Shown: positions 15,010 through 37,862 of the stretch, piece after piece
How positions within the stretch are numbered: position 1 is the first letter of the stretch
Layout of the letters: the number at the start of each line of letters is the position of its first letter
Assembly: GCA_946623145.1 (NCBI GenBank)
Contig: CAMOQT010000003.1
Span: 1 to 42,630 of the forward strand
Source of the DNA: an uncultured Azospirillum sp.
Lineage (GTDB): Bacteria; Pseudomonadota; Alphaproteobacteria; RF32; CAG-239
Reading direction: 5' to 3'
Length of the DNA stretch: 42,630 nt
Translations under genes and position numbers: made by a program
The notes under the pieces: model-generated
Database searches by the model: none
Seen by the model: only the letters and a program-made list of their open reading frames with translations
What the model was told of the DNA's origin: nothing

Positions 15010-15408
15010 CTATTGTGCGCCGGCGTATTCCTTTATTTTCTCAACCATTGAGAACAGACCGTTACGGCGACTTGGGCTTAAATGTTCTTGCAGTTTTAGT
15101 TTAGCAAAAATTTCTTCAACTTCAATCTCTTTAATCTCTTGTGCAGATTTATTTGAATAAATCATTAAAACAATAGCAATTAAGCCTTTTACAATAAAGG
15201 CATCGCTATCTCCTTTAAAATAAAATTTTCCGTTTTCCTTTTTGGGTTCAAGCCACACTTGAGATTGACATCCTCTGACTTTCCAGTCTTCCGTTCTGTA
15301 TTCTTCATCCAGAGGCTCTAAATGACTGCCAAGTTCTATAATGTAACTGTATTTTTCCTCCCAACCATCCAGAAGTTCGAAATTATCTATCAGTTCATTA
15401 ATATCCAT
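15010..15408 (-). CDS. sufE: SufE family Fe-S assembly protein
   Basis: WEEKYSYIIELGSHLEPL, DWKVRGCQSQVWL (conserved Cys), LSPSRRNGLFSMVEKIKEYA. Confidence 0.93.
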   Translation of the reverse strand: MDINELIDNFELLDGWEEKYSYIIELGSHLEPLDEEYRTEDWKVRGCQSQVWLEPKKENGKFYFKGDSDAFIVKGLIAIVLMIYSNKSAQEIKEIEVEEIFAKLKLQEHLSPSRRNGLFSMVEKIKEYAGAQ

Positions 15409-15869
15409 TATATCATCTCCATCATAGCTCGAGCTTCTTCTGTCATACGGTCAAAGCTCCATGCCGGCTCCCAAACGATTTTAACTGTCACTTTTCCAAC
15501 CCCTTCAACCAGAGCCACAACATCTGCGGCTTGTTGAGGTAAGACACCGGCAACAGGACATCCCGGAGCCGTTAATGTCATATCAATCTCAACATCTCCG
15601 TTATCACTTTGACGGACATCATAAACCAATCCTAAATCATAAATATTTATTGGAATTTCCGGATCAAAAACTGTTTTAAGCGCTTCAACAATATCTCCCT
15701 GAGATGCTTTTTTCTCTCCTTCAGGTAAAGCTTGCCCAGCGTGAGCCTCGTAATCTTGAGGAACAACAGATCCTTCAGAAGCAGTATCCTGCCCCTGAGT
15801 CATAGCACTTAGAAGTCTTAATTCATTTTCATCTATTTCTTTTTCTTCACTCACTATTTTATTCCTCAA
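15408..15869 (-). CDS. sufT: MIP18/DUF59-family SUF assembly protein
   Basis: ALKTVFDPEIPINIYDLGLVYDV, MTLTAPGCPVAGVLP, VKIVWEPAWSFDRMTEEAR. Confidence 0.9.
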   Translation of the reverse strand: MRNKIVSEEKEIDENELRLLSAMTQGQDTASEGSVVPQDYEAHAGQALPEGEKKASQGDIVEALKTVFDPEIPINIYDLGLVYDVRQSDNGDVEIDMTLTAPGCPVAGVLPQQAADVVALVEGVGKVTVKIVWEPAWSFDRMTEEARAMMEMI

Positions 15870-16779
15870 CCATCAAAATCAGACAAACAATCGACACTAA
15901 AAGTAATATCAAATACTGTGGTTTGATTTTTATATAATGTCCTTTTTTAGCAAAAGTAAACAGATAGTTATTTCCTAACATAATCCATACCGGATATGCG
16001 TGGACAATTGCTGCTACATAAGCCGGGTTTGGACTTAAATACATTGTATAAGTTTTCAAAACACTGTGTAGAATCGCAAAGCACATAAAAAACCATGCAA
16101 ATTTTAGGTTTTTACGTTCAAAAATCTCTTTAAAATGCCGTTTTTCTTGGAATAATATATTGCACACCCCTGCGACAAAAGAAGTTATCAAGGTATAATA
16201 AAATATTGCCGAAATTACATTTTCTGCACCTAAATGTGTCGTTTCTTTACTGGTCACATCAATAAACGTTTCACAACTCATTGCAGCCAATAAAAACCAT
16301 AAAGCTTTACGATTAGCTTTAGCCTGACTGATAAGAATTAAGGCTGTTGCGACACCTAACAAACATATGACAATTAAGGAAAATTTATCAGGTTCTGCAA
16401 TTAATTCCTGTAACTCATGGGGATGAATAAGCACCCAGACGATAAAGATAATGGCAATACTGACAGGATGAATAAGACTGGTAACTTCCGCTCCAAAGGC
16501 TTTCGCTGAATTAAGAATCCGATTTTCTCCAATTGATAAAACTAAGCCTTGTACCACGCATAAAACATAAAACCAGATATTGTGAATTGGCACAAAATAA
16601 AAACAAAACGGCAACAGAATAACTGCCGTTCCTAAACCGCGATAAGCCATTAAAACAGAGCCTTTGACTTTTAAAAACTGATTAGCCCATACATAACTTG
16701 CGGTTAATAAGCTTAAACAAAGAGCCAATATCCACCAATAGTTTTGCATTAAATCCTCTGCTTCTTGTTTTTTGCACAA
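15859..16779 (-). CDS. DMT-superfamily (EamA-like) transporter, about 10 TM (paralog 1)
   Basis: Two-repeat hydrophobic architecture; clear similarity to the product of 17563..18453. Confidence 0.75.
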   Translation of the reverse strand: MCKKQEAEDLMQNYWWILALCLSLLTASYVWANQFLKVKGSVLMAYRGLGTAVILLPFCFYFVPIHNIWFYVLCVVQGLVLSIGENRILNSAKAFGAEVTSLIHPVSIAIIFIVWVLIHPHELQELIAEPDKFSLIVICLLGVATALILISQAKANRKALWFLLAAMSCETFIDVTSKETTHLGAENVISAIFYYTLITSFVAGVCNILFQEKRHFKEIFERKNLKFAWFFMCFAILHSVLKTYTMYLSPNPAYVAAIVHAYPVWIMLGNNYLFTFAKKGHYIKIKPQYLILLLVSIVCLILMVEE

Positions 16780-16840
16780 TTAACAGAAGTTATAAGCGAA
16801 TATTTTTGCTTGTCAAGATTATCTCTTGATGAAAAATGAC

Positions 16841-16868
16841 TTGCTAATTCCTTAAAAGCTATTATATT
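16841..16868 (+). promoter_or_regulatory. Candidate sigma70-type promoter for the structured RNA/XRE transcript
   Basis: TTGCTA (16841-16846), 16-bp spacer, TATATT (16863-16868). Confidence 0.4.
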
Positions 16869-16894
16869 TTAGATGGATTAAGTTTCGGATATTA

Positions 16895-17024
16895 TTATAC
16901 ATGCCATGAGGACTAGGAAACCTCCGGCAACATAACTTTGCCAAGTTATATGGCACCTAACAGGCACTACTCTGAAAGGAGGAGTGCCACGATAGTTGTA
17001 TGACTTAGTGGGTGCACGTTGCCG
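16895..17024 (+). ncRNA. Structured RNA / candidate riboswitch-like leader upstream of the XRE gene
   Basis: Self-consistent multi-helix fold: P1 16895-16901/16997-17003, P2 16908-16911/16921-16924, P3 16932-16938/16943-16949, P4 16963-16972/16979-16988 (one A-G mismatch), pseudoknot 16914-16917/16956-16959; competing helix CGGCAAC 16925-16931 / GTTGCCG 17018-17024. Confidence 0.55.
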
Positions 17025-17040
17025 TGTTTTTCTACGCTCC

Positions 17041-17067
17041 TCCGCCTTTCAGAAGGCGGATTTTTTT
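17041..17067 (+). terminator. Rho-independent terminator between the structured RNA and the XRE start codon
   Basis: TCCGCCTT-tcag-AAGGCGGA stem then TTTTTTT, 24 nt before the ATG at 17091. Confidence 0.85.
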
Positions 17068-17090
17068 ATTTTTCAGAGGAGTTTTAGAAA

Positions 17091-17558
17091 ATGAATACAC
17101 AAAAACAAATCTCATCTAGTCAAGTTCGTTTTCGTAGTCGTTGCCCGAATGGTGAAATTAATCCTGTTGACGTTTATGTCGGAAAAAGAATCGCTCTTCG
17201 TCGTAAATTATTGAATCTCTCTCAAGATGTTTTAGCAAAAAAACTCGGTATTACTTTTCAACAAGTTCAAAAATATGAAAAAGGAAAAAATCGCATTAGT
17301 GCCAGCCGTTTATGGGATTACAGCCAAATTTTAGGCGTTGAAATTAATTATTTTTTTCAAGACATGCCTCAAGAAATAGCTAATCAAAGTCCGAGAATGT
17401 TTCACAACACAGTAAATGAACAAAACATTTTGTTAGATACACCTTTTGATTTAACCTCTGAAGCACAGGAAATTTTGCTATATTATTCCAAAATTCATCA
17501 CCCTGCTATTTCTCAAGCTATTACTGATTTATTAAAAGCGCTTACACAATCTTATTAA
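17091..17558 (+). CDS. XRE-family HTH transcriptional regulator
   Basis: VGKRIALRRKLLNLSQDVLAKKLGITFQQVQKYEKGKNRISASRLWDYSQILGVEINYFF; SD cagaggag upstream. Confidence 0.93.
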   Translation: MNTQKQISSSQVRFRSRCPNGEINPVDVYVGKRIALRRKLLNLSQDVLAKKLGITFQQVQKYEKGKNRISASRLWDYSQILGVEINYFFQDMPQEIANQSPRMFHNTVNEQNILLDTPFDLTSEAQEILLYYSKIHHPAISQAITDLLKALTQSY

Positions 17559-17562
17559 AAAT

Positions 17563-18453
17563 TTATTTTCCAAGCAAAATTAAACCGATGACAGATGCGA
17601 ATAAAACACCGACAACTTTTAGGCTAATATGCGGACATAGATAATTTTTATAATGACAAACTTGGTAAATATCCCAACCGATAATTAACATAGGATACGT
17701 ATAGATAATTGCTGCAACATATGATGGATTAAATGTTTTAGCCATTGCCACGTTCTTTGAGGCTAAAGACAGAAGTGCCCAAATAACCAATATCACCCCA
17801 TTTTTCAAATTTTGTGGTTTCCACAGCAAGGATGTTTTATAAGTCCTTAAATATGCCCATAAGTTGGCTACACCCATGATAATACTCATAATCAAAATAT
17901 AATAAAAGACAGCCGAAGACAGATTTTCTTTTCCAAAAAACATCGCCTGTTTGTTCAAAATATCCGACCCTGTTGTCATAAACAAGCACGGCAACAAATA
18001 TATAAAGGCACGGAAACCTATCTTACTTTTACGCAATTGCAAAATTGTAATCGTAATTCCTACTAAACAGGCAATGATTCCTAGACACCGCCACGGATTA
18101 TGAATTAATAAAATAATCTGGTACGGATATATCATCAACCAAGAAATAAATGTCACACCGATACTCAACGGTTGAATGGCGCTTGTCATTTCTGCTCCGT
18201 ATTTATTGACGGCATGAAAAAAACGATTATCCAAATATGATGCCCATAAGCCTTGCGCAATTACAAACACATAAAAATAGGGATCATATATGAATGGAAA
18301 AAAAGGAATAAACGGCAACATAACAAGTCCGGCACCGAGACCACGATATGTCATGAATAACGAAGCCGGCATTTTGAAAATTTGGCTTGAATAAATATAA
18401 ACAGCCGTAAATAGGCTGGAAATTAAAGCCGCTATCCACCAAACATTTTCCAT
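17563..18453 (-). CDS. DMT-superfamily (EamA-like) transporter (paralog 2)
   Basis: WWIAALISSLFTAVYIYSSQIFK...TYRGLGAGLVMLPF...NRFFHAVNKYGAEMTSAIQPLSI parallels paralog 1 (YRGLGTAVILLPF...NRILNSAKAFGAEVTSLIHPVSI). Confidence 0.75.
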   Translation of the reverse strand: MENVWWIAALISSLFTAVYIYSSQIFKMPASLFMTYRGLGAGLVMLPFIPFFPFIYDPYFYVFVIAQGLWASYLDNRFFHAVNKYGAEMTSAIQPLSIGVTFISWLMIYPYQIILLIHNPWRCLGIIACLVGITITILQLRKSKIGFRAFIYLLPCLFMTTGSDILNKQAMFFGKENLSSAVFYYILIMSIIMGVANLWAYLRTYKTSLLWKPQNLKNGVILVIWALLSLASKNVAMAKTFNPSYVAAIIYTYPMLIIGWDIYQVCHYKNYLCPHISLKVVGVLFASVIGLILLGK

Positions 18454-36034: not shown

Positions 36035-37862
36035 TAAATTTCTCCTGTATTTTATTCAGACTGCGCCGTGATATCCAACCATATACCCCAATCCAGGCTA
36101 ATAAAATTAGGAATGGAAAAGCGACAAGATTTATAAAAATGATGTTTTGCTTTTTGGAAGAAAAAGTATCTTTGATTTTATAGCTGTAATATTGAAGTTT
36201 TTTTTGTAATTCTTCTATCTTCTCTCTGATTTCACTGTCTCTAAGAGCTGTCATTGCGTTAAATGTTTCAAGTTTTTCTTCTATCAACACTCTTAAGTTA
36301 TTATGTTCTTCGATTAGTTGCTGTAATTCATTTTGCAACCGACTGATTTCAGATAAGTACTGCTCTGCTATTTTAGAATATATTGTACTCCCTAAACTTT
36401 CTTGTGTCATTTTAGTTTGAGATTTGTAAAGTGCGGCCATTTCAGCTTCATTATTGAACATTTCTACTGTTTTAAGAATCAACTGCCCATTGTCATTCAA
36501 ATTTGTCCCGTTCAACCACACATTATCTCTTATAAAATCACTATCTCCAATCACTAATATTTGTGCCGGTTGATTTGAATAAAACAAATAATTGTGTTCT
36601 TTAAAAGTAACAGCTTGTGGAATATTCGTGAAAGCGGAATGAAATTTTCCTTTTATCAAAGATCCTAAAATAAACTCTCTTTGTTCTTCTTTATAACTTT
36701 TTACAATATTTTGTTTATCTTTTAAATTATCGGAAAGATCATAAACGCCACCTTTTTCCAATTTAAGAATCGGAGTCACAATAAAATCATTATCATGATC
36801 CAATTCTTTTATTTCCGAGGCACTTCGCAATTGTATGTTTTTTATTTCCGAAGAGATTCCCTCAATTGGCATTATCGCTGATTTTGGTAGATTTATCCAT
36901 AATGGATATGGTGTTTGATACCATCCATTTTGACTGTCGCCCACAAATTCTTTCTGCCCATATTGTTGTGTGCCGACTACTGTATCTGCCAACTCTATAC
37001 CCCAGTTTTTCAGTAAACCGTTTATCTCATTGAGGTTATCATAGGTTAATTTATATTCCGGTTCCTCAATGTATGTATCTAACAACATAATCAGTTTGCC
37101 TCCGCGCAAAACATACTGATCTAAGGCAAACATCAAAGATATTGGCATTTTAGGTGGAGCAACAACAATTAATGTATCAATACTTTCTGAGATATCACTA
37201 ATATTCATTGGCAATTCGACAAGGTTATATCTGGCTGCAAGTTCATCTAAAAAGGCATATCGTTCAATTTCTTGTCCATATGTTCTTTTGATTATTCTGT
37301 GAATCGGACTAATTAATCCTACTGTTTTGTGTCGTGTTTCATTAAATTTTGTGAGAACGGATGTAATATCTTTTTCTAACCAGAAATCTCTATCCATACT
37401 AAAATCAGAAATAACTTCTTTTTTGCCGTCCGCATCACTAAATAATACGCCAAAATATGAATTTGTCTGTCCCGTCAAAGATGGAATAGGCGCTATTCCT
37501 TCTTTTTGAGCTTCGCTTTCAATATCTGAATATGGTTTTGGATTTTTTAATGCAATAAACATCTTATCCTGGTTGCATTGCTGATATTGCTGTAAAAAGC
37601 GAATAACATATTCCGCATATTTTGCATAAACAGGATTTTCTTGGGCCATATCAGCTGAATAATAAATTGTTATATAGAGTGGTTGAATTAATTTTTGTGT
37701 CTGTTCGCAACTGAATTTTGATAACGAATATTTTTTATTTTCCGTTAAATCCCAAACCATTCGACCGCCTTGCATGCGTGAAAGAGTATTCATTGCTATT
37801 ATGCATACGGCTATCCCTATTAATAAAAACGCAAGATAATATTTTTTGATGCTTTTATTCAT
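36021..37862 (-). CDS. GldG-like ABC-associated periplasmic/membrane protein
   Basis: N-terminal TM, DLTENKKYSLSKFSCEQTQKLIQPLYITIYYS, LDQYVLRGGKLIMLLDTY, QILVIGDSDFIRDN, coiled coil and C-terminal TM. Confidence 0.85.
   Translation of the reverse strand: MNKSIKKYYLAFLLIGIAVCIIAMNTLSRMQGGRMVWDLTENKKYSLSKFSCEQTQKLIQPLYITIYYSADMAQENPVYAKYAEYVIRFLQQYQQCNQDKMFIALKNPKPYSDIESEAQKEGIAPIPSLTGQTNSYFGVLFSDADGKKEVISDFSMDRDFWLEKDITSVLTKFNETRHKTVGLISPIHRIIKRTYGQEIERYAFLDELAARYNLVELPMNISDISESIDTLIVVAPPKMPISLMFALDQYVLRGGKLIMLLDTYIEEPEYKLTYDNLNEINGLLKNWGIELADTVVGTQQYGQKEFVGDSQNGWYQTPYPLWINLPKSAIMPIEGISSEIKNIQLRSASEIKELDHDNDFIVTPILKLEKGGVYDLSDNLKDKQNIVKSYKEEQREFILGSLIKGKFHSAFTNIPQAVTFKEHNYLFYSNQPAQILVIGDSDFIRDNVWLNGTNLNDNGQLILKTVEMFNNEAEMAALYKSQTKMTQESLGSTIYSKIAEQYLSEISRLQNELQQLIEEHNNLRVLIEEKLETFNAMTALRDSEIREKIEELQKKLQYYSYKIKDTFSSKKQNIIFINLVAFPFLILLAWIGVYGWISRRSLNKIQEKFNDNK

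Follow-up and report, generated by a model that had tools for sequence, protein, structure and literature searches.

A candidate double-pseudoknot attenuator RNA upstream of an XRE regulator gene in an uncultured Azospirillum species

A structured RNA precedes a satellite XRE gene

The RNA described here occupies nucleotides 16895 to 17067 of a 42,630-nucleotide stretch of DNA (hereafter called the window) on contig CAMOQT010000003.1 from an uncultured Azospirillum sp. It is flanked by a divergent gene for a 306-amino-acid membrane protein (15859-16779, minus strand) and by a gene for an XRE-type regulator (17091-17558, plus strand; Pfam HTH_3, 1.2e-14). The ATG of the latter gene is located 24 nucleotides past the T run of an intrinsic terminator that ends the RNA, and both are read in the same direction. 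The XRE gene is presumed to be the gene controlled by the RNA. With a probability of roughly two in three, we interpret the region as the 5′ leader of this gene and as a cis-acting double-pseudoknot transcription attenuator that belongs to an apparently undescribed RNA superfamily.

Folding and conservation both mark the region as a genuine structured RNA. A 181-nucleotide segment folds with a free energy of -59.1 kcal/mol, compared with -42.6 +/- 4.1 kcal/mol for dinucleotide shuffles (z = -4.03; 0 of 200 shuffles). In the sister species, the second of the genus (G005), the 159 nucleotides from 16901 to 17059 are identical. Four-fold degenerate sites nearby differ between the two species at 11 of 65 positions (17%) in 15408-15869, at 27 of 106 (25%) in a DMT-like gene and at 19 of 38 (50%) in the XRE gene. 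As two sequences are compared, a recent exchange of only this stretch between the two genomes could also account for the identity.

Close sequence relatives of the RNA are few. Of 152 genomes that belong to its GTDB family, only the sister species gave a convincing BLASTN match. There was none in phages and plasmids, and short matches elsewhere were mostly to coding sequence or to terminators. Exact pattern scans of viral contigs were likewise negative. At curated thresholds no Rfam family matched in the window, and a literature search of incomplete coverage found no description of these RNAs.

Shared architecture of XRE-associated leaders

The XRE gene in the window is an extra, or 'satellite', paralogue of a family whose canonical member, in the loci fetched from this GTDB family, lies between an apolipoprotein N-acyltransferase-like gene and a further gene. 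The two neighbours are taken to be Lnt and metK. A second XRE gene, of the canonical type, is present in the same genome (G000:C18). Regions upstream of canonical XRE genes fold little better than shuffles. Many extra XRE copies are preceded by a very stable RNA (250 nucleotides, z down to -9) with a terminator just before the gene, and 19 such related leader RNAs matched no Rfam family.

These RNAs share an architecture that begins with a hairpin (H1). A first pseudoknot (PK1) connects the H1 loop to a segment just before a C-rich strand, and a second (PK2) connects the segment following H1 to the loop of a 3′ hairpin. The C-rich strand overlaps an intrinsic terminator and can pair with a G-rich strand, which is otherwise held in a local hairpin. 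Comparative sequence data support this architecture well, including H1, PK1, PK2 and a possible pairing between the G-rich and C-rich strands.

The window RNA has every one of these elements in the same order and spacing, all on the plus strand. H1 (16908-16924) was located by the architecture scan, has counterparts in other XRE-associated RNAs and is formed by GAGG and CCTC around the loop ACTAGGAAA. This loop contains the 5′ strand of PK1 (TAGGAAA, 16914-16920), whose partner J1 (TTTTCTA, 17028-17034) was recognized by folding and by the architecture scan. As we define the superfamily, PK1 has at least 6 bp and abuts the C-rich strand, as it does here. Directly 3′ of H1 is the 5′ strand of PK2 (V5; CGGCAAC, 16925-16931), which pairs with V3 (GTTGCCG, 17018-17024; fold and architecture scan) over the 7 bp or more that the definition requires. 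In relatives the strand has the same position and partner. V3 lies in the loop of hairpin H4 (17014-17027), which was recognized from sequence and whose closing stem GCAC/GTGT also occurs in another leader (L103).

The G-rich antiterminator strand GGAGGAGTG (16978-16986; pattern and architecture scan) is contained in hairpin H3 (16963-16988), which was found by folding and is the predicted anti-antiterminator. Its complement, the C-rich strand CGCTCCTCC (17035-17043; architecture scan), shares 3 nucleotides with the 5′ arm of the terminator (17041-17067). The terminator comprises an 8-bp stem, TCCGCCTT/AAGGCGGA (17041-17060; 5 G-C pairs), and a T run, and shuffled sequences average 0.2 terminators. 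A close codirectional start codon behind the terminator is also part of the definition of the superfamily, and in the window this is the ATG at 17091. A local hairpin (ATAACTT/AAGTTAT, 16932-16949) is evident from sequence between V5 and H3, and the minimum free energy structure pairs it alternatively.

When these features were combined into a search descriptor, the score of the window RNA was matched by 0 of 1500 dinucleotide shuffles, and 2 of 1500 gave any match. Over the 42.6 kb on both strands there was one further match, which is of low complexity. The descriptor fits most satellite-XRE leaders and none of the 47 canonical leaders in a first control set. Among loci fetched after the descriptor was fixed, it recovered 13 of the 30 leaders of non-canonical XRE genes and 0 of the 29 from canonical Lnt-XRE-metK loci (Fisher p = 4.6e-5). 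Some of the non-canonical leaders that it missed can be seen to belong to the same type, but their elements are weaker or truncated.

The sequence types closest to the window RNA (GGRGGAGTG..CTCCTCCRCC) come from G014 and G015, where they too immediately precede XRE copies. Three loci in G014 (L139, L140) carry the same 146-amino-acid XRE protein with different leader RNAs. Tandem copies of the RNA are present in L140 (7457-7566 and 8098-8211), L144 (10716-11113) and L063. Those in L140 come with a repeated XRE gene start, which suggests duplication of the module.

Gene neighbourhood of the window RNA

The RNA and its XRE gene (16820-17562, plus strand) are present in the window genome and in the sister species. 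In a third species of the genus (G001; comparison with L071), the same two transporter-like genes adjoin with neither RNA nor XRE gene between them. Because the two are absent together, they behave as one module. Either loss in the third species or gain in the lineage of the other two could explain this distribution.

The flanking genes (15859-16779 and 17563-18453) encode two related multi-pass membrane proteins, which are side by side within a suf gene neighbourhood in the third species. Neither has a significant Pfam or NCBIfam match. A candidate promoter for the RNA (TTGCTA-16-TATATT, 16841-16868, plus strand) matches the consensus at 9 of 12 positions, which is weak evidence, and the intergenic DNA around it is almost unchanged in the sister species. 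Between the divergent promoters is a palindrome, TCAAGA-N5-TCTTGA (16813-16829), that might serve as an operator for the XRE protein.

The R1 family and replacement of PK2

A covariance model, R1, was built from the 3′ domain of seven XRE-leader RNAs of the GTATGTYCA type. Matches were found in 118 of 128 genomes of the GTDB family, with five genomes carrying at least 29 matches each, and in a sample of the class they extend to 26 genomes of 20 other families. Two strong copies are present in the genome of the window, at C54 and C40. A weak match within the window itself (37680-37794; 16 bits) does not display the architecture and is probably due to chance. The R1 motif occurs mainly in records of Alphaproteobacteria assembled from animal gut and rumen, 'Azospirillum sp. 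CAG:239' among them. No Rfam family matched the one R1 RNA submitted, and a pattern search for R1 in viral contigs gave none.

The genes behind R1 RNAs include those for XRE regulators (12 of 71), large surface proteins, pilin-like proteins, lipoproteins, glycosyltransferases, capsule or rhamnan enzymes and outer-membrane protein barrels. The distance from RNA end to start codon has a median of 24 nucleotides and is 40 nucleotides or less in 64 of 71 cases. The architecture descriptor fits 66 of 75 R1 RNAs, which also have an upstream hairpin, ATCCCCGA/TCGGGGA, that is analogous to H3 of the window RNA. These findings point to a large and apparently undescribed RNA regulon of animal-gut bacteria located ahead of outer-membrane, pilin-like, glycosyltransferase and regulator genes.

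Side-by-side reading of R1 RNAs reveals PK1 and PK2 in addition to the helix between the G-rich and C-rich strands, with PK2 joining the 7-10 nucleotides after H1 to the H4 loop. Of 107 R1 RNAs, 99 form a PK2 helix of 8 bp or more. In 32 sequences examined at 15 PK1 and PK2 pairs, all 480 cells are standard pairs and the covariation score is 0.925; shuffles score 0.244 +/- 0.019, and slid partners no more than 0.13. This set was chosen for a 9-bp PK2, which biases the PK2 percentage upward, and PK1 was not selected. Across about a hundred related RNAs the counterparts of both pairings show covariation, and RNAalifold identifies compensatory changes in the antiterminator helix of R1.

PK2 also changes in an unusual manner. 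In orthologous R1 RNAs that are 95-97% identical elsewhere, PK2 identity falls as low as 43-47%, with both strands changed and the new helix fully paired. Such fully compensated replacement en bloc is seen among the orthologous leaders L166, L187 and L188, between L126 and L127, and between L378 and L387, the last two having H1, PK1 and antiterminator strands in common but not the V sequences. The same kind of replacement distinguishes G002 from G004 in another sequence type. Other close R1 pairs have an unchanged PK2. Where several copies from one genome were compared, in small samples, their V sequences were all different. A few PK2 sequences (e.g. TATTAGGTA and TATATGCTT; L143, L161, L189, L179) are found unchanged in different genera and upstream of different genes, which may be due to chance.

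A helix normally changes one pair at a time; in these RNAs, which are otherwise about 96% identical, 7-10 bp switch together. Compensated replacement of this kind calls for an undescribed mutational route or for strong selection for new pairing sequences. The variable segments also raised the idea of a bridge or guide RNA, which is unsupported, since these segments pair with each other. A speculative and rather doubtful proposal is that PK2 is a per-gene address. Dozens of surface-gene leaders in a single genome would then each carry a private, self-complementary key of 7-10 nucleotides under diversifying selection, individual leaders would be opened by a trans-acting RNA or another factor, and satellite XRE loci would be nodes of the network.

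A possible attenuation mechanism

The arrangement of the window RNA leads us to infer a mechanism of transcription attenuation. With the G-rich strand sequestered in H3, the C-rich strand would be free, the terminator at 17041-17060 could form and transcription would stop before the XRE gene. If H3 opens, the G-rich strand would capture the C-rich strand, along with 3 nucleotides of the terminator 5′ arm (2-6 nucleotides in relatives), and polymerase would read into the XRE gene 24 nucleotides downstream. PK1 and PK2 would tie the two halves of the RNA together and are likely to be the sensing part. The signal might be the XRE protein, another RNA, a ligand, or the speed of transcription or translation, and the XRE product is one candidate for the regulating factor by linkage only.

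Several observations agree with this scheme. In 20 of 22 RNAs tested, 2-6 nucleotides are common to the C-rich strand and the terminator arm. For the window RNA, with pseudoknots left out, the terminator state (-59.3 kcal/mol) and the antiterminator state (-55.3 kcal/mol) are within 4 kcal/mol. The overlap, the alternative local hairpin, the close energies and the short gaps to the gene are what a terminator/antiterminator switch predicts.

Other points weigh against it. In the window RNA, antiterminator and terminator share just 3 nucleotides. Model R1, whose E-values are rough, does not match this RNA (E <= 1). Its sequence type has few close relatives (by pattern, G000, G005, G014 and G015), and for this reason covariation for this type rests on architecture rather than alignment. 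In addition, some of these RNAs were already known when the descriptor was composed, and it was therefore run again on the newly fetched loci.

Alternative explanations

A first-pass annotation of the window, made from sequence alone, described a structured RNA with competing helices ahead of a terminator and the XRE gene. This description holds, and an attenuating leader, which it offered as one possibility, is plausible. The complementary segments that it listed were all found, about where it had placed them. Comparative data assign several of them (CGGCAAC/GTTGCCG of its fold B, its P2 GAGG/CCTC, its P4, which is H3, and its third helix GGAGGAGTG/CGCTCCTCC) to the conserved architecture. 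Its fold A was likened to the SAM clan, and this part fares poorly. The P1 helix is not in the conserved architecture, and one of the few changes in the sister species, C16900 to A, breaks a P1 pair. Rather than forming a pseudoknot with CCTA, the TAGG loop pairs with 17028-17034. Folds A and B are not simply mutually exclusive, and the real competition is between P4 plus the terminator and the third helix. The local hairpin at 16932-16949 is its P3.

A variant of the SAM-clan riboswitches is accordingly highly improbable, even though the strings CATGAGGAC..CCGGCAAC resemble these RNAs and the canonical copy of this XRE family adjoins metK in relatives. No SAM model (RF00162, RF00634, RF01725) matched at gathering thresholds in the window or at E <= 5 in 341 nucleotides. 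The supposed P2-loop/J3-4 pseudoknot and the P3 segment GGCAAC belong to two different pairings, PK1 and PK2, which stand in place of the SAM pseudoknot across the family. The conserved GGUGC partner of GGCAAC reads AUGGC here, as the annotation itself had recognized, and GGCAAC instead pairs with GTTGCCG at 17018-17024. Moreover, genes behind R1 relatives mostly concern surface and glycan functions, not methionine or SAM.

The RNA could instead be an independent trans-acting small RNA, whose terminator merely ends the transcript while the XRE gene is expressed by leak-through or from another promoter. The strong terminator and compact stable fold would suit such an RNA, tandem copies exist, and for some R1 RNAs the next gene is 54-155 nucleotides away or no codirectional gene is obvious. 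We nevertheless consider it unlikely, because the 24-nucleotide gap in the window leaves no room for a separate promoter, the same is true of the tight spacing in 64 of 71 related RNAs, and the overlap between alternative helix and terminator arm is conserved. Less probable again is a mobile or selfish RNA-XRE cassette, in which the RNA would serve the element (as guide, or in immunity or copy control) and not host gene regulation. The empty site in the third species, the three copies in G014 with one XRE protein and different RNAs, and the exchange of PK2 en bloc between close orthologues, as expected of an address, would fit this explanation. Most R1 copies, however, lack an XRE gene and precede ordinary surface genes, none was detected in viral contigs by pattern, and no recombinase was noticed, although no systematic search for a recombinase or partner genes was made.

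Comparison with known RNA systems

The resemblance to SAM-I, SAM-IV and SAM-I/IV riboswitches is limited to a superficial P2/P3/P4 layout and the GGCAAC string, whereas the pseudoknots and the regulon of the window RNA family are different and there is no Rfam score. The IS110 bridge RNA and other guide RNAs likewise combine a constant scaffold with short variable segments. Here, in contrast, the variable segments are complementary to each other and the 3′ end is formed by a terminator like that of an attenuator; neither a recombinase nor a nuclease was seen attached, with no systematic neighbourhood search made. The replicons of pT181-type plasmids are controlled by countertranscripts that act on attenuators. 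They similarly have a leader RNA with termination control and fast-diverging recognition loops, but the variable segments of the present RNAs pair within the RNA itself, and an antisense RNA is not demonstrated.

Further parallels are transcription-attenuation leaders and riboswitches with terminator/antiterminator platforms, in which an alternative helix also overlaps the 5′ arm of a terminator just upstream of the gene and which can form multi-copy regulons. The present RNAs differ from these in having no Rfam match and in that their 5′ domain is joined to the platform by two pairings of pseudoknot type, and the sequence of one of these pairings is not conserved and changes as a block.
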